Below are positions 1,705 to 51,952 of a stretch of DNA of 64,000 bases, one piece after another; positions within the stretch are counted from its first letter, which is position 1, and every line of letters starts with the position of its first letter. The position numbers were made by a program, and so were the translations under genes. The DNA comes from Janthinobacterium sp. GW456P (GTDB lineage: Bacteria; Pseudomonadota; Gammaproteobacteria; Burkholderiales; Burkholderiaceae_D). Where the stretch lies: NCBI RefSeq assembly GCF_002127655.1, contig NZ_NEHB01000024.1, positions 1-64,000 on the forward strand, in the 5' to 3' direction. The notes beneath the pieces were generated by a model that worked only from the letters and a program-made list of their open reading frames with translations, did not search any database and was not told the origin of the DNA.

Positions 1705-4023
1705 ATGGATTCGTCATCTGATAAAAAAGAAGAATTGCGTCAACAATTGCGCTTGGCCGCACTCGAGTATCACGAGTGCCCGCGCCCCGGCAAAATCAGC
1801 GTGACGCCGACCAAACAACTGACCAACCAGCGCGACCTGGCGCTGGCCTACTCGCCAGGCGTGGCCGCTCCCTGTGAAGAAATCGTCATCGATCCGGCCA
1901 ATGCCTATAAATATACGGCGCGCGGCAATCTGGTGGCCGTCATCACCAACGGCACGGCCGTGCTGGGACTGGGCAATATCGGCCCGCTGGCCGCCAAGCC
2001 GGTGATGGAAGGCAAGGGCGTGCTGTTCAAGAAATTCGCCGGCATCGACGTCTTCGACATCGAAATCAACGAATCGGACCCCGATAAACTGGTCGACATC
2101 ATCGCTTCGCTGGAACCGACCTTCGGCGGCGTGAACCTGGAAGACATCAAGGCGCCCGAGTGCTTCTACATCGAGCGCCAGCTGCGCGACCGCATGAAGA
2201 TTCCCGTCTTCCATGACGACCAGCACGGCACCGCCATCATCGTCGGCGCGGCTATCCTGAACGGCCTGAAGGCCGTCGGCAAGGAAATCGCGGCCTGCAA
2301 GCTGGTCGTCTCGGGCGCGGGTGCGGCGGCGCTGGCCTGCCTGGACCTGATCGTCGACCTGGGCTTCCCCCTCAAAAACATCTACGTCACCGACCTGGCC
2401 GGCGTGGTCTACAAGGGCCGCGCGGAACTGATGGACCCGGACAAGGAACGCTTCGCGCAAGACACGCCGCTGCGCACCCTGGGCGAAGTCATCCCGGACG
2501 CCGACATCTTCCTCGGCGTTTCCGCCGCCGGCGTGCTGAAACAGGACATGGTGCGCAAGATGGCGCCGAACCCGCTGATCCTGGCGCTGGCCAACCCGAA
2601 TCCGGAAATCCTGCCGGAAGAAGTCAAGGCCGTGCGCAGCGACGCTATCATCGCCACCGGCCGTTCGGACTATCCGAACCAGGTCAACAACGTGCTGTGC
2701 TTCCCCTACATCTTCCGCGGCGCCCTCGATTGCGGCGCCACCACCATCACGCGCGAGATGGAAATCGCCGTGGTGCACGCGATCGCCGACCTGGCGCATG
2801 CCGAGCAGTCCGATATCGTCGCCACCACCTACGGCATCAGCAACCTGTCGTTCGGTCCTGAATACCTGATCCCGATGCCGTTCGATCCGCGTTTGCTGAT
2901 CAAGATCGCGCCAGCGGTCGCCAAGGCGGCCGAGGATTCGGGCGTCGCCACGCGTCCGATCAAGGACTTGCAGGCGTACGCGGACAACCTGCAGCAGTTC
3001 GTCTACCGCAGCGGCACCTTCATGAAGCCGCTGTTCCTGATGGCCAAGTCCACGCCGGCCGAACTCAAACGCATCGTCTACGCCGAAGGCGAAGAAGAGC
3101 GCGTGCTGCGCGCCGTGCAAGTGGTGGTCGATGAAAAACTGGCGCGTCCCATCCTGGTGGGCCGTCCGCCCGTGCTTGAAGCGCGCATCCAGAAGTTCGG
3201 CCTGCGCCTGAAGCAAGGCGTCGATTTCGACGTCATCAACCCGGACTTCGACGAGCGCTATCGCGATTACTGGAATACGTACTACGCGATGACCAGCCGC
3301 AAGGGCGTCACCGAGGAATACGCGAAACTGGAAATGCGCCGCCGCCACACCCTGATCGGTTCGATGATGATCCACAAGGGCGACGCCGACGGCATGATCT
3401 GCGGCACCTTCGGCACCACCCAGCTGCACCTGAAATACATCGACCAGGTGCTGGGCAAGCGCGCCGGCAGCAATGTGTATGCCGCCATGAACGTCTTGAT
3501 CATGCCGGAGCGCCAGCTGGTGATGGTCGATACGCACGTCAACGAGAACCCGGACGCCGGGCAGCTGGCCGAGATCACCATCATGGCCGCCGAAGAGATG
3601 ACCCGTTTCGGCCTGTCGCCGCGCGCGGCCCTGCTGTCGCACTCGAACTTCGGTTCCAGCGACAGCGCCTCGGCGCAAAAGATGCGCGCCGCCCTGGCCA
3701 TCATCAAGGAACGCGCGCCGGAGCTGGAAATCGACGGCGAAATGCACGGCGATACGGCGCTCGACAGCAAGCTGCGCCACAAGCTGATGCCGAACTCGGA
3801 CCTGAAGCATGATGCCAACCTGCTCGTCATGCCGAACATCGAATCGGCCAACATCGCCTACAACCTGGTGAAGACGGCGGCCGGCAACGGCATCGCCGTG
3901 GGTCCGATCCTGCTCGGCTGCGCCAAGCCCGTGCACATTCTGACGCCATCGGCCACCGTGCGCCGCATCGTCAACATGACGGCCCTGTGCGTGGTCGATG
4001 CAGTCGCCCAGCGGAAAGTCTAA
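1705..4023 (+). CDS. maeB: NADP-dependent malic enzyme with phosphotransacetylase-like domain
   Basis: A cytoplasmic enzyme that oxidatively decarboxylates malate to pyruvate and makes NADPH. At 772 residues it has the usual MaeB length. Residues 1 to about 430 are the malic enzyme domain, with [11 protein letters not shown] near 48-56, the metal-site stretch FHDDQHGTA at 169-177 and the nucleotide fold GAGAAA near 204-209. Residues from about 430 onward form the phosphate acetyl/butyryltransferase-like domain that in MaeB serves allosteric control by acetyl-CoA. The ATG follows an AGGAAGG Shine-Dalgarno. It is monocistronic, with its own promoter region (1513-1704) and a strong terminator. 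Confidence 0.96.
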
Positions 4024-29760: not shown

Positions 29761-31440
29761 ATGTCCGCGTTGCTCCGCCTGTTGTGCCTGTTGACGATCT
29801 TTCTGCTGCCCGCAGCCCACGCGGACGAGGGCGCATCCTCGCTCGTTGCGGAAGCCGCGACCGCCATCGCGCCGTCGCAGGCTGCCATCGTCAAGACGGC
29901 GCCGCTGATGTTTGCCAACCGCAAGGTCTTCGTCTTCCGCGCCGCGCTGGCCGGCTATCCGCCCGATGAACGGGCCATCGGCGCGCAGCGCCGCCTGGAA
30001 AGCGTGCTGGCGAAAAACGGTCCCTTGCAGGCGAGCACGCGGATCATTCCCGAAGGCACGCAAGTGCTGCTCGATGGCGTGCAACTGTTCGTCGTCGTGC
30101 CTGGCGACGTCAACTTGCTGGCCGGCGACACGACGGAAAGCGTGGCGAAAACGGCGGCCGGCGAGTTGAGCAAGGCCGTGGCTGACTATCGCGAACAGGG
30201 CAGCTGGCGCTACCTGGCGATCGCCGCCGCCGTGTGCGCGGCCGCCACCCTCGTGTTCTGGCTGGTGTGGATGGGTCTGACGCGCTTTTACCGCTGGGCC
30301 AAGCGCCGCAGCGGCATCCTGCTGGCCTCGCGCCTGCGCGACGTGCGCCTGAAGAATGTGCGCGTGCTCGACGCCGAACACTACATCGCCTTCGCGTATC
30401 AACTGCTGAGCGCCGTGCTGTGGGGCTTGCGCCTGATGGCCACCTATCTGTGGGCCGCCTTCGTGCTGGGCCGCCTGCCCTACACGCGCTCCTGGGGCGA
30501 AAGCCTGAGCGGCTATCTGTTCGACGTGGCTGCCGATGTTTTCCACGCCATCATCGGCGCCTTGCCGGGGCTGGTGCTGGTATGCGTGATCTTCGCCATC
30601 GCGCGCCTGATCGCCGCCACGGCCGCCTCGCTGTTCAAGCGCGTGGAAAGCGGCGAATTGCAGATCGGCTGGCTAGACAAGGATACGGCCCTGCCCACGC
30701 GCCGCATCGCCAGCGTGGTGATCTGGCTGTTCGCGCTGGCCATGGCGTATCCGTACCTGCCCGGTTCGCACACGGCCGCCTTCCAGGGACTTTCCGTGCT
30801 GGTCGGCCTGATGGTGTCAATCGGCGCATCGAGCATCGTGGGCCAGGGCGCCAGCGGCCTGATCCTGATGTACACGCGCGCCCTGCGCAAGGGGGAATAT
30901 GTGCGCGTGGGCGACAGCGAAGGCACGGTGGTCGAGCTCGGTATGTTCGAGACGCGTTTGCGCACGGGACTCGGCGAGGAAGTCGCCTTGCCGAACGCCT
31001 GGGTGATGTCGCAAACGACAAAGAATTATTCGCGCGCCCAGCCCGGCGGCGGCTTCGTGCTCGACTCCACCGTCACCATCGGCTACGCCACGCCCTGGCG
31101 GCAAGTGCACGCCATGCTGGAACTGGCCGCCTCGCGCACGCCGGAACTGTCGACCACGCCGAAACCGTACGTGATGCAGCTGGCCTTGCAGGATTACTAC
31201 GTGCAATATCGTCTCGTCGCCTATGCCAGCGCCGAAGTCCCCCGCCAGCGTGCCGAAGTGCTGAACCGCTTGCACCAGAACATCATCGACGTCTTCAACG
31301 AATTCGACGTGCAGATCACCTCGCCGCACTATATCGACGACCCGAAAGAGTCGCACGTGGTGCCGCCCGGTGAATGGTTCCGGGCGCCGGCGAGGCGGGG
31401 GGAGGAAACGATTGAGGTGGTTCCGTCCAAGTCTTCTTGA
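29761..31440 (+). CDS. Mechanosensitive ion channel family protein (MscS-like)
   Basis: An inner-membrane channel protein of 559 residues with an N-terminal signal peptide (about 1-21) and a periplasmic domain to about 150. Four to five helices follow (about 155-180, 210-240, 260-285, 320-340), then the pore helix and beta domain: SIGASSIVGQGASGLILMYTRALRKGEYVRVGDSEGTVVELG. That segment is the MscS signature. The C-terminal alpha/beta region ends with a long basic/acidic tail. It protects against osmotic downshock in the family. Monocistronic; ATG at 29761. Confidence 0.9.
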   Translation: MSALLRLLCLLTIFLLPAAHADEGASSLVAEAATAIAPSQAAIVKTAPLMFANRKVFVFRAALAGYPPDERAIGAQRRLESVLAKNGPLQASTRIIPEGTQVLLDGVQLFVVVPGDVNLLAGDTTESVAKTAAGELSKAVADYREQGSWRYLAIAAAVCAAATLVFWLVWMGLTRFYRWAKRRSGILLASRLRDVRLKNVRVLDAEHYIAFAYQLLSAVLWGLRLMATYLWAAFVLGRLPYTRSWGESLSGYLFDVAADVFHAIIGALPGLVLVCVIFAIARLIAATAASLFKRVESGELQIGWLDKDTALPTRRIASVVIWLFALAMAYPYLPGSHTAAFQGLSVLVGLMVSIGASSIVGQGASGLILMYTRALRKGEYVRVGDSEGTVVELGMFETRLRTGLGEEVALPNAWVMSQTTKNYSRAQPGGGFVLDSTVTIGYATPWRQVHAMLELAASRTPELSTTPKPYVMQLALQDYYVQYRLVAYASAEVPRQRAEVLNRLHQNIIDVFNEFDVQITSPHYIDDPKESHVVPPGEWFRAPARRGEETIEVVPSKSS

Positions 31441-31482: not shown

Positions 31483-31986
31483 CTATCTTGGTTTTTCCTC
31501 GGGCGCACAAATATTTTTGCTATTTTTCAGCTGAATCACCTGGAAGCCTCCGGCGGGTGCCGTGAGCAGGCAGAAATCTGCCGAGTAGCGCGAAGTGGGA
31601 TCGGACGCGGATGGCGGCCGTCCCAGGAAGGATACGCCATACACTTTACCCGCAAGCAGCGGCGCGGCATCGCTGCTCTCGGCCCCCTCGGGAGCCTTGC
31701 CGTAGCGCACGCATCCCTTGTTTGGCAGACGATAGCTGGGGTCGCCAAATGAGGCATTGGGAAACATGACCGTCCATACATCTTTCCAGCCATTCGGCCC
31801 AGGTGTGCTGATCGTCAGCATCTTCAGGCTGACAGGCCCCCTTGAACGTTCCTCTTCAGTGGCAATCTTGAAGCAGGGCAGGCCCGCTTCCGTGATGACG
31901 GCGGCGCGGCCCATGCGCGACCATGCCGAGGCATCGATGGCCGTCAGGGTGGCAAGCAGGAATAACAGTGTGTGACGATATGGCAT
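31483..31986 (-). CDS. Secreted Cys-rich paralogue 1 (downstream of zincin)
   Basis: A 167-residue protein with an N-terminal signal peptide (about 1-20, LLFLLATLTAIDASA). Mature text shares a pattern with the next two genes: SRM..A, then PCFKI...EE, CVRYG.AP, L..GKVYGVSFLGRPPSASDPTSRY..DFC and a final C. Four shared cysteine positions suggest two disulfides and periplasmic location. The start has AGGA upstream. Function unknown; position beside a toxin-like zincin suggests immunity. Confidence 0.65.
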   Translation of the reverse strand: MPYRHTLLFLLATLTAIDASAWSRMGRAAVITEAGLPCFKIATEEERSRGPVSLKMLTISTPGPNGWKDVWTVMFPNASFGDPSYRLPNKGCVRYGKAPEGAESSDAAPLLAGKVYGVSFLGRPPSASDPTSRYSADFCLLTAPAGGFQVIQLKNSKNICAPEEKPR

Positions 31987-31999
31987 GGTGATCCTCGCA

Positions 32000-32509
32000 C
32001 TATCTGATGAGCAAATGTTCCGGGCAACTATCCTGTTTCCACGCTGGCGTGTCGCTGCCAATGGCGATGATTTTTCGTTCACCAGTGGCCGTGGCTACTA
32101 TGCAAAACTTTCCCATGTAGCCATAGGTGGGGTCGGAAGGATCATTTGGTCTTCCATTGAGGAAAATGCTGTAGACCCGTCCTGTTTGCAGTTGAGGGGC
32201 GGGCATGCCGTTCGCTCCCTGGGGAAGGTCACCATACCGAAGGCAGCTTTTTGACGAGAGCGGTACTTTTTTTCCACCAGTCATATAAAAACTCCACATA
32301 CCAACGACGGGCTTTTCTGACAGGTCTGAAATGCTGAGTGCTCCCAGGAGTGGCTGGCCGTTACGTTTCTCTTCCGTTTGTGAGATTGTGAAGCAGGGCG
32401 TGCCATTCACTGAATTGATTTCAGCATCGGCGATGCGTGATGTTGCACAGGCATGCAGGCTGAGGAACATGAGGAGTCTGAACAGGGCATTCTGCTGCAA
32501 GGAGATCAT
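32000..32509 (-). CDS. Secreted Cys-rich paralogue 2 (downstream of zincin)
   Basis: A 169-residue homologue of its two neighbours. The signal segment is ALFRLLMFLSLHACATS. It shares SRIADAEI, GTPCFTISQTEEKRNG, CLRYGDLP and LQTGRVYSIFLNGRPNDPSDPTYGYMGKFC. AGGAAAAAC precedes the ATG at 32509. The cysteine in SLHACATS could be a lipobox, but the preceding residues are not ideal. It lies 13 bases upstream of paralogue 1 and seven bases downstream of paralogue 3, so the three form one transcription unit. Lower GC than the window average. Confidence 0.65.
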   Translation of the reverse strand: MISLQQNALFRLLMFLSLHACATSRIADAEINSVNGTPCFTISQTEEKRNGQPLLGALSISDLSEKPVVGMWSFYMTGGKKVPLSSKSCLRYGDLPQGANGMPAPQLQTGRVYSIFLNGRPNDPSDPTYGYMGKFCIVATATGERKIIAIGSDTPAWKQDSCPEHLLIR

Positions 32510-32516
32510 GTTTTTC

Positions 32517-33050
32517 CTATTTCTGAACGGGGCAGATTTCATCTATCCAGGCTTGGCTATCGCTGTCGATAAGAAGAATCTTGCGCTCACCGGAGATACC
32601 TGTCATCAAGCAAAATTTCCCGACGTAACCGCGAGTAGGATCTGAAGGATCGGCTGGCCCACCGTTCAGGAAGACGTCATACATGCGCCCCGTTTTCAGC
32701 GGCGGAGCTTTGGGTGGCTTGACCTCTGCCGTTGCTGGAGCAAGCCCATACAAAAGGCAGGACTTGGCATGCACAGGGATAGTTGCTGTGCCCGGTAAAA
32801 GAAAAGACCATACTTTGACTGCAGGCTTGACGGATACATCTGTCAGTACGACCGCACTAATCTGCGGAACCCCGTTGCGTGCTCCTTCCTTTTCAGAAAT
32901 AGAGAAACAGGGAATGCCGTTTTTTAGCTGTACTTCCGCGTATGCCATGCGGGACATGCCGAAAGCGTCATGGTATGTCAAACAAAGGCTCGTGCTCAGC
33001 ATTACGGCCGGGCAGATTTGCCTTGCTTTTCCTATCTTTGAAAAAATCAT
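32517..33050 (-). CDS. Secreted Cys-rich paralogue 3, overlapping the zincin 3' end
   Basis: A 177-residue homologue. The N-terminus has a basic n-region (FSKIGKARQ) and a hydrophobic segment (ICPAVMLSTSLCL). It shares SRMAYAEVQ, IPCFSISEKEGARNG, CLLYGLAP, LKTGRMYDVFLNGGPADPSDPTRGYVGKFC and a C-terminal C. I set the start at 33050 because AGAGG lies six bases upstream. That start lies inside the zincin gene, an 83-base overlap in another frame, which argues for translational coupling. It is the first candidate partner of the zincin. Confidence 0.65.
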   Translation of the reverse strand: MIFSKIGKARQICPAVMLSTSLCLTYHDAFGMSRMAYAEVQLKNGIPCFSISEKEGARNGVPQISAVVLTDVSVKPAVKVWSFLLPGTATIPVHAKSCLLYGLAPATAEVKPPKAPPLKTGRMYDVFLNGGPADPSDPTRGYVGKFCLMTGISGERKILLIDSDSQAWIDEICPVQK

Positions 33051-34038
33051 GTAATACCTCTTCATAAAGTTGTAGGGAGTGTTGATATTTCGGTTGGCGC
33101 ATTGCGTCTGGATCTTTTAAATACTTCAGTGTGTGATAGTCTGCGAGCAGGTCACCTTGTGCTTCCATGTTGTAATCCGATAATTTTTTCTTCGGTAGTA
33201 GTACATACTTGTAATCCAAACCTAGCCTGACAAGTCCCCGTATCGCCACTGGATAATTCAATTGATGCTGCCAAACATGCACCATTTCATGCATGAACCA
33301 GTTTTTTGGCCTTGGCTTTTCCTTTGAAAAATCTTCTCGAAATTCCGACTCATGAAAGTAAATCTCCCCATCCGGCGTCATGGCCACGTTCTTCGGCTGT
33401 AAACCGAACCACAAATACGGTTCGCCATGCACCTTGACCTTGCCGTAGTCGATCGCGTCCTGGAACAGCATCCACGCCATGTCGATCTCGCCACTGGTCA
33501 GCGGGCGAACCTTGTCCTTGACTTTGACCAGTTTGACGGACGAACCGACGTCCTTGTCGGTCGTCTTGACGCCATCGAGCTGGACGACCTTGACGGCTGG
33601 CGCCGCGTGTTTCGGGGCGTTGGCGCAGCACGGCGATTTGTCCGCGTGGGGCAGGAATTCGGTCTGGGTAATCACTGCTTCCTGCTTGCTGGCCACGCGC
33701 CCCGTGCGTCCCTTCGCATCCGTCGTCCCCGTCCACGTTTCGCCATTGCTCAAGGTGAGCCGGTAGTCGGCGTGCGCAAGCGGCACCTTGTTTTGCGAGA
33801 CGAATTCCAGCTGTTCGTCGTAGCCGCAGCATCAGCATTCGTCGGGCTGGCCGGCCAGGCGGTGCAGTTCGCAGCCGCTTGTCGCGTTGCGCAGGGTGGC
33901 GCCCAGCACGGGCTGGCCATCGGCGCTGAAGGTGACGATCATGCTGTCGAAGCGCGCGCCGAAGCTGTTCTTGTAGTGCGTGACGAGCTTGAAGAACACG
34001 TCGCAGCCGGTGGTGCTGATGACATGGTGCCTGGCCAT
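32968..34038 (-). pseudogene. Zincin metallopeptidase, T6SS-effector-like, interrupted by one in-frame TGA
   Basis: A single frame of 357 codons interrupted by TGA at codon 69 (33834-33832), which lies between two Cys codons. The start at 34038 has GGAG six bases upstream; the second half has no good ribosome site. After the stop comes YDEQLEFVSQNKVPLAHADYRLTLSNG, like the linker domain of type VI effectors. Zinc motif HEMVH (about 250-254) with NMEAQGD (Glu about 292) as third ligand. The text GLQPKNVAMTPDGEIYFH and KKLSDYNMEAQGD matches proteins labelled Vgr-related. It may be a decayed gene, a sequencing error, or a split gene. Confidence 0.7.
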
Positions 34039-34171: not shown

Positions 34172-34786
34172 ATGTCCAGCGCCCCCCATACTGAAGCATC
34201 GCAAGCCGCCCGCAGTCTGGCCGCCGCCCTGATCGGCGACCCGTTTTACCGCGCCGTCACGGTGGCGTGCGGCGAGGACGAGGTGGCGCGGCTGGAAATG
34301 CTGGTGACTTATTTTGCGCTGGCGCTGGCCGAAGGCCGGCAGGCGGGCCGCGTCGACCTGACTGATGACGGGGGCAGTGGCGCCGCCATCTGGACAACGG
34401 ATACGCCGGTAGCCGAGCGCCAGGCCGCGTACGCGCAGCGCGAAGACGCCTTGCGCATGCTACTGGGGGAGCGCGGCTTTGCACACTTTTCGGCCATCGT
34501 CGAAAACATGGAGCACGCGCTGGCATCGCACGACTTGGGCGCGGCCTGGTATTTGTCGATCGCCGGCATCGCCCCGGACGCGCAGGGGCGGGGACTGGGC
34601 GTGTCCGTGCTGGCGCCGGGGCTGGCGGCCGTCGATGCGGCGGGCGCCGCGTGCTTCCTGGAGACCTACAACGAACGCAGCCTGCCGTTTTATGCCCGGA
34701 TGGGCTTCGCGGTGGCGGGGCGTTACGCGGAAGCCGTCACGGGTTGCGATTACTGGCTGATGCTGCGGCAACCCACTGCTGCCTGA
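34172..34786 (+). CDS. GNAT family N-acetyltransferase
   Basis: A cytoplasmic acetyl-CoA-dependent acyltransferase of 204 residues. The cofactor region is AWYLSIAGIAPDAQGRGLGVSVLAPGL (Q-G-R-G-x-G), followed by CFLETYNERSLPFYARMGFAVAG, the usual substrate/cofactor strand and helix. Acceptor unknown. It lies divergent from the zincin module with its own leader; a ribosome site (AAAGAG) precedes the ATG. Confidence 0.85.
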   Translation: MSSAPHTEASQAARSLAAALIGDPFYRAVTVACGEDEVARLEMLVTYFALALAEGRQAGRVDLTDDGGSGAAIWTTDTPVAERQAAYAQREDALRMLLGERGFAHFSAIVENMEHALASHDLGAAWYLSIAGIAPDAQGRGLGVSVLAPGLAAVDAAGAACFLETYNERSLPFYARMGFAVAGRYAEAVTGCDYWLMLRQPTAA

Positions 34787-34857
34787 TTGACCATTTTGCC
34801 AATTTCTATACACTCGTCTTTTCGCTCATTGACTGAATAAAAGACCTGGAGATGGAA

Positions 34858-36537
34858 ATGCCGATACTGCCACTGCGCCGCACCCTGCTCACGCTCGCCT
34901 GCCTGGGCGCCCTCGCGCTGCCCCATGCCCACGCCGATACCATCATCCACAATGCCAACGGCTACACGCTCGACGCAGCCGGCAAGGTGCTGCGCTTCAC
35001 GGCGCTGGCGTTTGACGATACGGGCAAGCTGCTGGCCGTCGGCAGCGCCGCGCAGGTGAAGCGCAAGGCGGCCAAGGGCGCCACCCACGTCGACGTGCAG
35101 GGCAAGACCGTGCTGCCTGGGCTGATCGACGCGCACGGCCACGTGTTCGGCCTGGGGACGATCGCCAGCGGCGTGATGCTGTACGGTTCGTCGTCGCTGC
35201 AGGCCGCCGTGCAGGCCGTGGGCGACTTCGCCCGCGCGCATCCCGAGCGCAGCTGGGTCGTCGGCAATGGCTGGAACCAGGAAATCTGGAAGCTGGGGCG
35301 CTTTCCCACGGCCGCGGAACTCGATGCGGCGGAAAGCGCGCGGCCCGTATGGCTGCGCCGGGTCGATGGCCACGCGGGCTGGGCCAACAGCCGTGCGCTG
35401 GCGCTGGCCGGTATCACGCGCGCCACGCCGGATCCGGCCGGCGGCAAGATCGAACGCGATGCGGATGGCAATGCCACCGGCGTGCTGGTCGATAATGCCA
35501 TGGACTTGATGGATGCCGTGCTGCCCAAGCCGGGCGACGTGGAAAACCGCGCCGCCCTCGATGGCGCGCTGGCGCAGCTGTCGCAGGCGGGCCTGACCAG
35601 CGTGCACGATGCGGGCATCGGCCAGATGCAGGACCGGCTGTTCCGCGATTACGCGGATCACGGCAAGCTGACGGTGCGCGTGTACGGCATGATTGCCGAC
35701 ACGACGGAAGACTTCGACGCATTGTCGAAAAGCGGCCCATTAAAAAGCTATGCGCGCGACATGTACGCCTTGCGCGCCGTGAAACTGCTGTCCGACGGCG
35801 CCCTGGGCAGCCGCGGCGCCGCCCTGCTGGCGCCCTACAGCGACGATCCGACCACCAGCGGCCTGCTGTTCTACAAGGACGCCGCCATGCGCGCGAAGAT
35901 GGAAAAAGCCATGCGCGCCGGCTACCAGGTGAACGTGCACGCCATCGGCGACGCGGGCAACCATCAGATTCTCGACGGCTACCAGACCTTGATGGCGCAA
36001 TACCATAGCGCGGGCCTGCGCCACCGCATGGAGCACGCGCAAGTAGTGCAGTTGTCCGATATCCCCCGTTTCAAGACTCTGGGGATCGTGCCGTCGATGC
36101 AGCCCACGCACGCCACGTCCGACCAGAACATGGCGGAGCAGCGCGTGGGCCACGAGCGCATCCAGGGCGCGTATGCGTGGCGCACCTTCCTTGCGCAAGG
36201 CTCGCGCATCGCCTGCGGATCGGACTTTCCCATCGAGTCGCCGAACCCGTTCGAGGGCATCCACGCGGCCGTCACGCGGCAAAACAGCGAGGGGTTCCCG
36301 GCCGGCGGCTGGTATCCGCGGCAAGCCATGACGGTGACCGAAGCGCTGCGCTGCTTCACGCTGGACGCGGCCTGGGCGGCGCACCAGGACAAGGTCATCG
36401 GCACCCTGCAAGCGGGCAAATGGGCCGACTTCGTCGTCGTCGACCAAGACCTGTTCAAGGTGGCGCCGGCCGCGATTGGCAAGACGCAGGTGCTGCAGAC
36501 GTGGGTGGCGGGCAAGCGCGTGTTCGAGAAAAAATAG
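34858..36537 (+). CDS. Secreted amidohydrolase, YtcJ-like
   Basis: A metal-dependent hydrolase of 559 residues with a signal peptide (about 1-23, TLLTLACLGALALPHAHA). The metal histidines are in GLIDAHGHVFG; a later set is VNVHAIGDAGNH and MEHAQ; the aspartate is in ACGSDFPIESPNPF. This is the YtcJ type of amidohydrolase with broad imide/amide substrates. I set the start at the second ATG (34858), because GGAG abuts the first (34852). It directly precedes the hutU promoter on the same strand, but no link to histidine breakdown is shown. Confidence 0.87.
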   Translation: MPILPLRRTLLTLACLGALALPHAHADTIIHNANGYTLDAAGKVLRFTALAFDDTGKLLAVGSAAQVKRKAAKGATHVDVQGKTVLPGLIDAHGHVFGLGTIASGVMLYGSSSLQAAVQAVGDFARAHPERSWVVGNGWNQEIWKLGRFPTAAELDAAESARPVWLRRVDGHAGWANSRALALAGITRATPDPAGGKIERDADGNATGVLVDNAMDLMDAVLPKPGDVENRAALDGALAQLSQAGLTSVHDAGIGQMQDRLFRDYADHGKLTVRVYGMIADTTEDFDALSKSGPLKSYARDMYALRAVKLLSDGALGSRGAALLAPYSDDPTTSGLLFYKDAAMRAKMEKAMRAGYQVNVHAIGDAGNHQILDGYQTLMAQYHSAGLRHRMEHAQVVQLSDIPRFKTLGIVPSMQPTHATSDQNMAEQRVGHERIQGAYAWRTFLAQGSRIACGSDFPIESPNPFEGIHAAVTRQNSEGFPAGGWYPRQAMTVTEALRCFTLDAAWAAHQDKVIGTLQAGKWADFVVVDQDLFKVAPAAIGKTQVLQTWVAGKRVFEKK

Positions 36538-49813: not shown

Positions 49814-50578
49814 ATGTCGGAAAACGAATCGGCTACTAGTCGACGAGCCGAACAGGCTATAACATTGTTAGACCGGGTGGTGCAATATAGATGGGCTTTG
49901 CTTATTGTCTCTGTTGTGTTGGCAATTGATGATGCCTTGGTGATTTTTTTTAATAACGGAATTGCTAATTTTGATTTGCATCTGTCCAATGTTGCTGAGG
50001 GGGGCAAATTAATCCCTACTGGTGCTTATATAGTTTTTTTGGGCTGTTATGTATTTTTTATGGGTGCCATTTCACCAGTATTCCAAAATATTCTGGAATG
50101 GTTCATGAATCTGATTCGCTACTCAGATGTTTGGTATAAAATATTTGGTCATTCTGGTTCATATAGAGATTACCGTGAAAAGCTAAATTCTGGTTATGTT
50201 ACTTTGTATGATGCGAAAAAGGAAGCTCTGAAGGAAAAAGATAGCTTTTGGATTGGAAGAGTTGAGGCAAGGAAGGATGAGAAAAGAAAGAGCGATAGTG
50301 AAGGGAAGATGCTGTCACAATTGTCGTTCTCATGCACATTTCTATTGTTGGTGAACTTACTGGCAGGGGATAATTCTTTTTCGAGCTTATTGTTAGAGTG
50401 GAATGTAATACAATCAATTATCTGGCATTGGATTGTTGATATTGTTTTTCTGCTGTCTGTTGGTGTTTTGATTTCGCCATGGCTTATATATTTCATGAGA
50501 AACGATGAATATTTTGATTGGATAGAGCATCCAGAAATGGCGGAAAAAAAATTGCGGGAAATGAAAAAGAAGGACTAG
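49814..50578 (+). CDS. AT-rich orphan membrane protein
   Basis: A 254-residue protein of much lower GC than its neighbours (roughly 35-40% by eye), with AT-ending codons throughout. Four hydrophobic segments: about 28-46, 68-88, 166-185 and 205-230. A basic/acidic soluble loop of about 75 residues (YRDYREKLNSG, KDEKRKSD) lies between the second and third. I do not recognise it. The start is 5' of a purine-rich ribosome site (GAGG) ten bases upstream. The base composition points to recent horizontal transfer. It is flanked on the right by a 12-bp inverted repeat. Confidence 0.75.
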   Translation: MSENESATSRRAEQAITLLDRVVQYRWALLIVSVVLAIDDALVIFFNNGIANFDLHLSNVAEGGKLIPTGAYIVFLGCYVFFMGAISPVFQNILEWFMNLIRYSDVWYKIFGHSGSYRDYREKLNSGYVTLYDAKKEALKEKDSFWIGRVEARKDEKRKSDSEGKMLSQLSFSCTFLLLVNLLAGDNSFSSLLLEWNVIQSIIWHWIVDIVFLLSVGVLISPWLIYFMRNDEYFDWIEHPEMAEKKLREMKKKD

Positions 50579-50659
50579 CAGGCATATTTAGAGTGCCTGC
50601 GAATACTGTTTTTTGTGATAAGTGAAGCTCAGAAGTGAGGTCGAAGTTTACATGCTTGC

Positions 50660-50694
50660 TGATCAACCTGCAGCCTTATGTCGCAGGTTGATCA
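50660..50694. repeat. Perfect 12-bp inverted repeat
   Basis: TGATCAACCTGC (50660-50671) and GCAGGTTGATCA (50683-50694) with an 11-base loop, at the right edge of the AT-rich segment. No T tract follows, so a terminator role is doubtful. Confidence 0.7.
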
Positions 50695-50743
50695 CTACGA
50701 AATCTCTAAATCGTAGCTTACTTTGTATGAGGGAAAATCTGTT

Positions 50744-51952
50744 CTAGCTGTGCGCGTAAATTTGTGTTTCCACCGGCTGCCCCTTGGCATCGAATTTCAG
50801 CGCCACGGACAGTTGCGTCACGCCGATGGTGGCCAGCGCGTCGCAGATGTCGTCGACTTCGTCCTGCAGGTCGGCGGCCAGGTCCAGCGGCTTGTCGGCG
50901 TTGTGCAGCAGCTGGCCGCCCGCCGTGCTGACGTTCACGCGCAGCAGCATTTCACCGTGTTCATCGGCCGGGCCGACGACCACCGAGACGTCACCGGCGT
51001 CCACCTTGTTTTCCGCCAGTGCATGGTTGATGCCGGACATCATCTGCAGCATCGCATATTCGCTCATGCCTTGTTCCTTGCCGCCGTGGAACAGGTCCTG
51101 GTAGAGGAAGCTCACTTCCAGCGCGCTGCCGGCTGGCGCCAGGCAGCGTTTCACCAGGTCGCCCACTTCCGTCGTCCACTGCTGGTAGCGGGCCATGCGC
51201 GCGTCGAACCAGGCGTCGAGCGCCGCTTCGTCCTGCGGTTCCGCATAGAAGGGGTCGTCCACGCGCTTCAAGGCAAAGCCCAGCAGGAAGCGCAGTTCGA
51301 CGGCCGTGTCCTGCGGGCCGAAAGCCGTCGCGTTCCAGCCGACGATGCTGCTTTCCAGGCCTGGCGTGGCGACGATCTTCTTGTCCGTCATCGAAGCGTA
51401 CGCGTCGCGCACCATGTCATGCAAATGGCTATACGTGATGCGGTCAATTTCATCGAGGTCGTAGGCATGGCTGATCAGGACCACCTTGGCCTTGGCGCTT
51501 TCCAGTTCTGCTTGCTGGAAACTTTTCACCAGCGCTTCGAACGCGTCCTGGTCCTGGAAGCTGTCCGCTTCCTTCAGGCCGCCCGTGCTTTGCACCAGCA
51601 GGGGCACGACGAAGGCGTTGATTTCCATGGCCGGGGCATTCTCGCGGCGGATCACGGAAATGGACGCCGCTTCCTCGATATGGCTGCGCAAATACTGGTA
51701 GGCGCCCACGTCTTCGTACTTGGCGCGCTCGATGGCGTCGTACAGGATTTCATCCTTTTTCTGGTTCAAGGCCTTGCGGATCAGGCGGCCGAATTCGACG
51801 GCTTGCTCGGCCAGCACCGTGCCCTGCGATTCGCTGTCTTCCTGCTCCGCCAGGTTCAGGGCCATCGTGCACAGCATGCGTGTGACGGCTTCATCCTTGT
51901 CTTCAGGCGTGTTGGCGGATTTACGGGGGACAGGGCGCTTATTTTTGGGCAT
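50744..51952 (-). CDS. DUF2863 family protein
   Basis: A cytoplasmic protein of 402 residues, found mainly in Burkholderiales. The N-terminus is basic (MPKNKRPVPRKS), then an acidic helical region (LNLAEQEDSESQG), a long alpha/beta body with the motif NAFVVPLLVQSTGGL, and a C-terminal GPADEHGEMLLRVNVS segment. The function of the family is unknown. I set the start at MPKNKRP (51952). No operon partner. Confidence 0.8.
   Translation of the reverse strand: MPKNKRPVPRKSANTPEDKDEAVTRMLCTMALNLAEQEDSESQGTVLAEQAVEFGRLIRKALNQKKDEILYDAIERAKYEDVGAYQYLRSHIEEAASISVIRRENAPAMEINAFVVPLLVQSTGGLKEADSFQDQDAFEALVKSFQQAELESAKAKVVLISHAYDLDEIDRITYSHLHDMVRDAYASMTDKKIVATPGLESSIVGWNATAFGPQDTAVELRFLLGFALKRVDDPFYAEPQDEAALDAWFDARMARYQQWTTEVGDLVKRCLAPAGSALEVSFLYQDLFHGGKEQGMSEYAMLQMMSGINHALAENKVDAGDVSVVVGPADEHGEMLLRVNVSTAGGQLLHNADKPLDLAADLQDEVDDICDALATIGVTQLSVALKFDAKGQPVETQIYAHS

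Follow-up and report, generated by a model that had tools for sequence, protein, structure and literature searches.

A VgrG2bC-ter/Tpe1-type metallopeptidase locus of Janthinobacterium that probably archives the immunity genes of displaced toxin tips

The VgrG2b protein of Pseudomonas aeruginosa has been linked to uptake into eukaryotic cells. Its effector domain, VgrG2bC-ter, is also described, in the available part of the report (PMC6899460), as a periplasmic antibacterial toxin, a metallopeptidase whose zinc ligands are two histidines and a distal glutamate; it is neutralised by the product of the downstream gene PA0261, full protection by which requires the disulfide-forming DsbA. The family members are type VI secretion system (T6SS) effectors and, according to the same sections (PMC6899460), are followed in T6SS loci by one small downstream open reading frame (ORF). 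For the T6SS clusters of Vibrio cholerae, sequential displacement of effectors has been proposed to leave behind arrays of immunity genes (PMC5361080, seen in excerpt; precedent Kirchberger 2017). Here, a locus of Janthinobacterium sp. GW456P is compared with these systems. It occupies positions 31483-34038, on the minus strand, of a 64,000-nucleotide stretch of DNA (hereafter the window) and encodes a metallopeptidase of the VgrG2bC-ter type followed by three small cysteine-rich paralogues (Table 1).

It is highly probable that this is a polymorphic VgrG2bC-ter/Tpe1 effector-immunity locus in which sequential displacement of the toxin tip leaves an archive of immunity genes. Under this scheme, a conserved N-terminal domain and a transthyretin-like linker would carry an exchangeable catalytic tip, the toxin would be delivered by a T6SS encoded elsewhere in the genome and would act in the periplasm of the prey, and the first downstream gene would encode the cognate periplasmic immunity protein. 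Recombination would import a new tip along with its immunity gene, so that the old tip is lost and the old immunity gene is shifted downstream, where it would persist with a different, shorter leader peptide. Repeated displacement would build a row of immunity genes, some of them corresponding to toxin versions that other strains of the genus still carry.

Among solved structures, the 272-residue C-terminal piece of the toxin has a single match, the VgrG2b effector domain of P. aeruginosa (PDB 6h56, E 7.9e-26), which extends over both the linker and the catalytic domain. The HEMVH and NMEAQGD stretches, in which the original prediction from the DNA alone had recognised the zinc ligands of a zincin, both align with 6h56, with the HEXXH motif and the distal glutamate ligand in place. 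A search with the modelled structure of P0005, an intact relative (mean pLDDT 84), also recovers 6h56 (E 3.4e-9, TM 0.66 by target); the weaker fold matches of this model are transthyretin-like folds, as fits the linker. In 26 of the 120 listed relatives (of 1083 found), this linker and catalytic domain are joined to a PAAR domain, which takes the place that the N-terminal domain occupies in Janthinobacterium. The other 19 full-length loci encode the N-terminal domain at 71-93% identity (at least 84% in 16 of them). Membership of the C-terminal piece in the VgrG2bC-ter/Tpe1 metallopeptidase effector family is thus supported by sequence comparison and by the model, as is the likeness to type VI effectors noted for its linker in the original prediction.

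The three downstream genes are indeed tandem cysteine-rich paralogues. Paralogues 2 and 3 are 48% and 31% identical, respectively, to paralogue 1, and all three share the cysteines and the SDPTxxY motif. Four cysteines are present in the mature part of each, as in 58 of the 61 complete copies identified in the genus, and 21 residues are invariant across 47 aligned copies. All three N-termini look like hydrophobic leaders, as judged by eye and by the N-terminal helix in the structure model. The first paralogue starts within the toxin gene, 83 bp upstream of the toxin end (33050 versus 32968), and in all 17 intact loci the overlap is 83 or 119 bp.

To delineate the distribution of this arrangement, 40 Janthinobacterium genomes were searched. 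Some zincin match (short paralogue included) was detected in 33 of these and an immunity match in 26; the site was read in 31 genomes, and 25 loci (the window and 24 that were fetched) were compared. Together, these contain 61 complete and 14 fragmentary immunity copies (75 in total), with at least one and up to six complete copies in 21 loci and at least two in 17. In 20 genomes of the genus, including that of GW456P, a full-length or nearly full-length toxin is followed by at least one complete paralogue, so the arrangement is not due to chance. Immunity types were defined by a 30% distance cut; six types have at least five copies, and types A, B, X and Z are seen both next to the toxin and in archived positions in different strains.

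The toxin tip and the first immunity gene vary together. Across 19 loci (17 for the later copies), the catalytic domain correlates with the mature part of the first immunity protein with Mantel r 0.94 (p 0.0002 from permutation of loci, the pairs not being independent; the partial value given the flanking mscS gene is likewise 0.94), and the linker with r 0.74. In contrast, the correlation of the catalytic domain with the next complete copy (r 0.11, p 0.13) and with the last copy (r 0.10, p 0.12) is slight. This set includes the broken toxins of the window, L042 and L052, of which the latter two were aligned over part of the C-terminal piece, and leaves out L041, the flanks of which were not found. 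The catalytic domains are 84.9-100% identical between loci with the same type of first immunity (45 pairs), compared with 55.9-79.7% between loci with different types (126 pairs). The mature immunity sequence lies outside the toxin overlap, so that the shared 83 bp are not the source of the correlation. The N-terminal domain follows mscS (r 0.89) and shows little correlation with the catalytic domain (r 0.17); mscS itself is weakly correlated with the first immunity (r 0.21, p 0.02). By this comparison, the tip and the first immunity gene appear to be exchanged together, with the N-terminal domain following the chromosome. The earlier characterization of the locus as an acquired orphan island is only partly right: 23 of the 25 loci share one site, next to mscS and/or the presumed amidohydrolase gene (L041 and L057 have no recognised flank), and two genes for the T6SS component TssF are encoded elsewhere in the genome.

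Many of the later copies resemble the toxin-adjacent copies of other strains. Of the 40 complete later copies, half reach 80% identity or more with a toxin-adjacent copy from another strain, and only one does so with that of its own. The mature part of immunity 2 in the window is 93% identical to that of the first copy of L049, where the C-terminal piece of the toxin is 65% identical to that of the window, and first copies of the window type appear as later copies in five loci. On the immunity tree, copies must have switched between first and later position 10 times, with at least eight of these switches forced by well supported branches. Such a distribution makes it very unlikely that the three genes are local tandem duplicates that diverged in place, with a gain in dosage or neofunctionalisation, rather than leftovers of displaced toxins. 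All copies are homologous and arranged in tandem, separated by short spacers (21 of 38 are 13 bp long; in the window, 7 bp lie between immunities 1 and 2 and 13 bp between 2 and 3), and copies 2 and 5 of L040 are each other's nearest relatives, as local duplication would predict. However, the nearest relative is in the same genome for only 2 of the 57 copies of multi-copy arrays and in another genome for the remaining 55, the types recur across genomes at first as well as later positions, and one later copy is preceded by a toxin fossil. That fossil, in L040 (G033), consists of the last 33 codons of a displaced toxin, which overlap the fourth copy; its best match among the uninterrupted toxins is that of L041 (70%, E 1e-12), and the first immunity of L041 is of the same type as the fourth copy of L040. 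L040 is also the most complex array, with six complete immunities of five types in addition to the toxin 3'-end fossil.

Sequential displacement of the tip would also account for the leaders. When first and later copies of types A, B, X and Z are compared, the mature parts are 83-93% identical, and the last 20 leader residues 19-27%, a comparison that depends on start codons picked by script. The leader of type C is that of type Z in L038 and L045 and that of type X in six other loci. This pattern suggests that tandem copies recombined where leader and mature part meet, with deletion as the result.

The archived copies seem to be maintained by selection. The median pairwise dN/dS by type (a simple pairwise method, with the toxins of L042 and L052 left out) is 0.15-0.26 for later copies and 0.10-0.18 for first copies. 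It is conceivable, with a chance somewhat short of even, that the array serves the whole genus as an immune memory under selection, in which displaced immunities are re-headed with a compact leader once the toxin-overlapping start is lost, are kept by purifying selection as their toxin versions circulate in related strains, and are stacked roughly oldest-last, some strains losing the toxin and becoming defenders only. Type C is the last complete copy in all eight loci that have it, and its average GC over all loci is 60%, compared with 52% for types A and B; the higher value would suit long residence.

Several observations count against tip displacement and the interpretations built on it, and some of these lend weight to other explanations. 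The other 20 of the 40 later copies have no toxin-adjacent counterpart at 80% identity or above (eight of type C, six of type Y, two of type X and four in L040). Type C shares no more than 36% identity with any first copy and is never found intact next to a toxin; in L053, one of the remnant loci, the toxin fragment is directly followed by a broken copy of this type. Type Y never occupies the first position. Coverage of several toxin variants, as originally proposed, is supported for the first two immunities of the window (types A and B) and is conjectural for the third, of type C. The fossil of L040 is the only one among the 25 loci, with none in the other 24. Finally, archives also decay: five loci (L053-L057) retain toxin remnants only, and 14 of the 75 immunity copies are fragments. 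A survey of further sites, in which the flank gene was found in 8 of 15 genomes and six were fetched, yielded four empty sites, where mscS adjoins the acetyltransferase gene without a trace of the island, and two scarred ones, with 28 residues of immunity 3 and 39 residues of the N-terminal domain, respectively. Together with the widely variable copy number, this decay would be expected if the later immunities were neutral debris en route to loss, with no present protective value. Such a scenario is unlikely given that the dN/dS of the later copies is close to that of the first copies and that 40 complete later copies survive. At the island site of L106 (G017; 2657-3968), an N-domain remnant precedes two ORFs of 234 and 155 aa on the minus strand.

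With respect to the immunity function, the NCBI T6SS-immunity models NF045617 and NF045616 are matched below the cut-off by 18 and 14, respectively, of 47 members (best E 4.4e-4), and kinship with PA0261/Tpi is suggested by place, size and cysteines, and weakly by sequence. Moreover, a second group reports, in the part available, that PA0261 also neutralises the lipase Tle3 (PMC6560169), so that a single immunity need not mean a single toxin. Neutralisation of two different toxins by PA0261, the 21 invariant residues and the nearly universal four cysteines would fit paralogues that are broad periplasmic metallopeptidase inhibitors, or that have some other role in the envelope, with copy number reflecting dosage rather than specificity. 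This is most improbable, considering that the first copy tracks the toxin version and the next copy, close behind, does not, and that every complete copy found in the genus accompanies a toxin or toxin remnant. The immunity reading is supported by linkage: all 61 complete copies in the 40 genomes stand in an array behind a toxin or its remnant, and none was detected elsewhere. In a survey of 392 family genomes, including the 40 of the genus, an immunity match was present in 48 of the 352 genomes outside Janthinobacterium, all 48 of which also have a zincin. Among the 50 matches, 37 are located within 500 bp downstream of a same-strand zincin, eight within 5 kb, and five farther away or on another contig. 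Widespread occurrence of the paralogues apart from the zincin, which would have contradicted the immunity reading, was thus not observed. The match is single in 45 of the 48 genomes, so multi-copy arrays are a Janthinobacterium feature in this sample.

With respect to delivery, the N-terminal domain falls into no recognised family; Pfam identifies it as neither VgrG nor PAAR, and it matches no known delivery domain. The presence of TssF in 39 of the 40 genus genomes, being near-universal, does not discriminate. Among the ORFs read, none next to the locus is a T6SS gene, and a short zincin relative without a linker lies in a pilus-like region of the same genome. The metallopeptidase might then not be a T6SS effector in Janthinobacterium, being released by another route or not secreted at all. 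The probability of this is small, in view of the fusion of the linker and catalytic domain to PAAR in listed relatives, the reported status of family members as T6SS effectors (PMC6899460, in part) and TssF itself. Delivery by T6SS, periplasmic toxicity, neutralisation by the first immunity protein and protection by later copies are the functions predicted for the Janthinobacterium locus under tip displacement.

The toxin frame of GW456P is broken. It starts at 34038, meets an in-frame TGA (33834-33832) after 68 residues and is then open to 32968; the two pieces were kept apart in the analysis. The ORFs and coordinates of the original prediction agree with this structure, but the stop codon is absent from its text. 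In 17 of the 20 full-length loci, the toxin is uninterrupted (355-357 aa), the exceptions being the window, L042 (3' end out of frame) and L052 (without a normal end). The lack of a complete frame speaks against a working toxin in this strain, not against family membership, and, judging by the frame, the window copy is probably inactive. The C-terminal piece has a dN/dS of 0.07 against its two nearest relatives, and the N-terminal piece about 0.7, a value based on very few changes (dS 0.07-0.08 over 68 codons; the median over all loci is 0.29). The low value for the former and the higher one for the latter imply a recent interruption, continued use of the C-terminal piece, or a sequencing error at the TGA. 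With all three immunity genes intact, the strain probably has protection against at least two toxin versions (A and B) without firing its own toxin. Another inactivated copy is P0047, a 208-residue toxin relative from a public collection that keeps the N-terminal domain and a C-terminal stretch identical to that of the window, without the HEXXH middle.

The drop in GC that had been noted at the locus is borne out, from 66% in the N-terminal piece and 65% in the linker to 46% in the catalytic part; the GC minimum of the window (44.6%) is at 50001-51000, away from the locus. The name of the amidohydrolase-like flanking gene is presumptive, being based on its sequence. The short zincin relative, of 173 aa and with 48% identity in the catalytic part, is at G000:C32:9477-9941 (L058 6433-6954, minus strand), in a region of presumably pilus-assembly-like genes and next to a presumed KDPG-aldolase-like gene, and no immunity match was found near it in its own genome, where the context was read. 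A comparable short zincin match was counted in 33 of the 40 genus genomes.

Table 1. Coordinates of the toxin, immunity and flanking genes in the window
Feature	Position	Strand	Basis or remark
Toxin, N-terminal piece, 68 aa	33832..34038	-	ORF list; ends at the in-frame TGA
Toxin, C-terminal piece, 272 aa; transthyretin-like linker, then VgrG2bC-ter/Tpe1-type zinc metallopeptidase	32968..33786	-	Longest ORF after the TGA, GTG start; 6h56 match; fold match for intact relative
HEMVH, zinc-binding and catalytic motif	33277..33291	-	Alignment with 6h56
NMEAQGD, taken as carrying the third zinc ligand	33151..33171	-	Aligns with NxExQGD of VgrG2b (ligand there: glutamate)
Immunity 1, type A, putative cognate of own toxin version	32517..33050	-	Overlaps toxin 3' end by 83 bp
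Immunity 2, type B, probably archived	32000..32509	-	Similar to L049 toxin-adjacent immunity (mature part)
Immunity 3, type C, probably archived, most divergent	31483..31986	-	Last complete copy in 8/8 loci having type C
MscS-type mechanosensitive channel (mscS), downstream boundary of locus	29761..31440	+	
GNAT acetyltransferase, divergent from toxin	34172..34786	+	Not found in some loci
Presumed amidohydrolase-like gene, conserved flank	34852..36537	+	

With one toxin family and one site in 23 of the 25 loci, the Janthinobacterium arrays are a natural setting in which to address whether orphan immunity genes act as a functional memory or are debris. The prediction is that the first copy protects against its own toxin version and the later copies against named versions of other strains, and the leader switch at the signal/mature boundary indicates where recombination acts.

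The closest relatives of the toxin, the VgrG2bC-ter-PA0261 pair of P. aeruginosa and the Tpe1-Tpi1 pair of Acinetobacter baylyi, share with it the catalytic domain with HEXXH and a distal glutamate, the transthyretin-like linker (as in VgrG2b) and a small downstream immunity gene with conserved cysteines, its product envelope-targeted in these pairs and putatively so in Janthinobacterium, as far as the sections at hand describe them (PMC6899460). The Janthinobacterium locus differs from these pairs in the N-terminal domain, which is neither VgrG nor PAAR, in the broken toxin frame of the window, and in the number of immunity paralogues, up to six compared with the one small downstream ORF described in the same sections. 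The arrays of V. cholerae are similar in that one effector is followed by orphan immunities that resemble the effector-paired ones of other strains, that an effector 3' end is left in one array, and that phylogeny argues against duplication (PMC5361080, in the excerpt available). Those arrays, as described there, belong to T6SS clusters and involve different effector types, whereas in Janthinobacterium a single metallopeptidase family occupies a site without neighbouring T6SS genes, the cognate and archived copies are separated statistically, and the leader switches between positions. Homologous immunity genes are also strung behind a polymorphic toxin in the esaG, tsaI and tipC strings of the type VII secretion system (T7SS) of firmicutes, and in esaG and tipC recombination between tandem paralogues alters the number and sequence of the immunity genes (PMC9484751, in part). 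The T7SS strings, so far as that source was available, come from Gram-positive bacteria and accompany other toxin families, whereas the main signal in Janthinobacterium is the exchange of the tip with the first immunity gene. As far as the surveyed literature goes, three features are new: the arrays in the VgrG2bC-ter family, the correspondence of these arrays to toxin versions inside a single genus, and the switch of leader.

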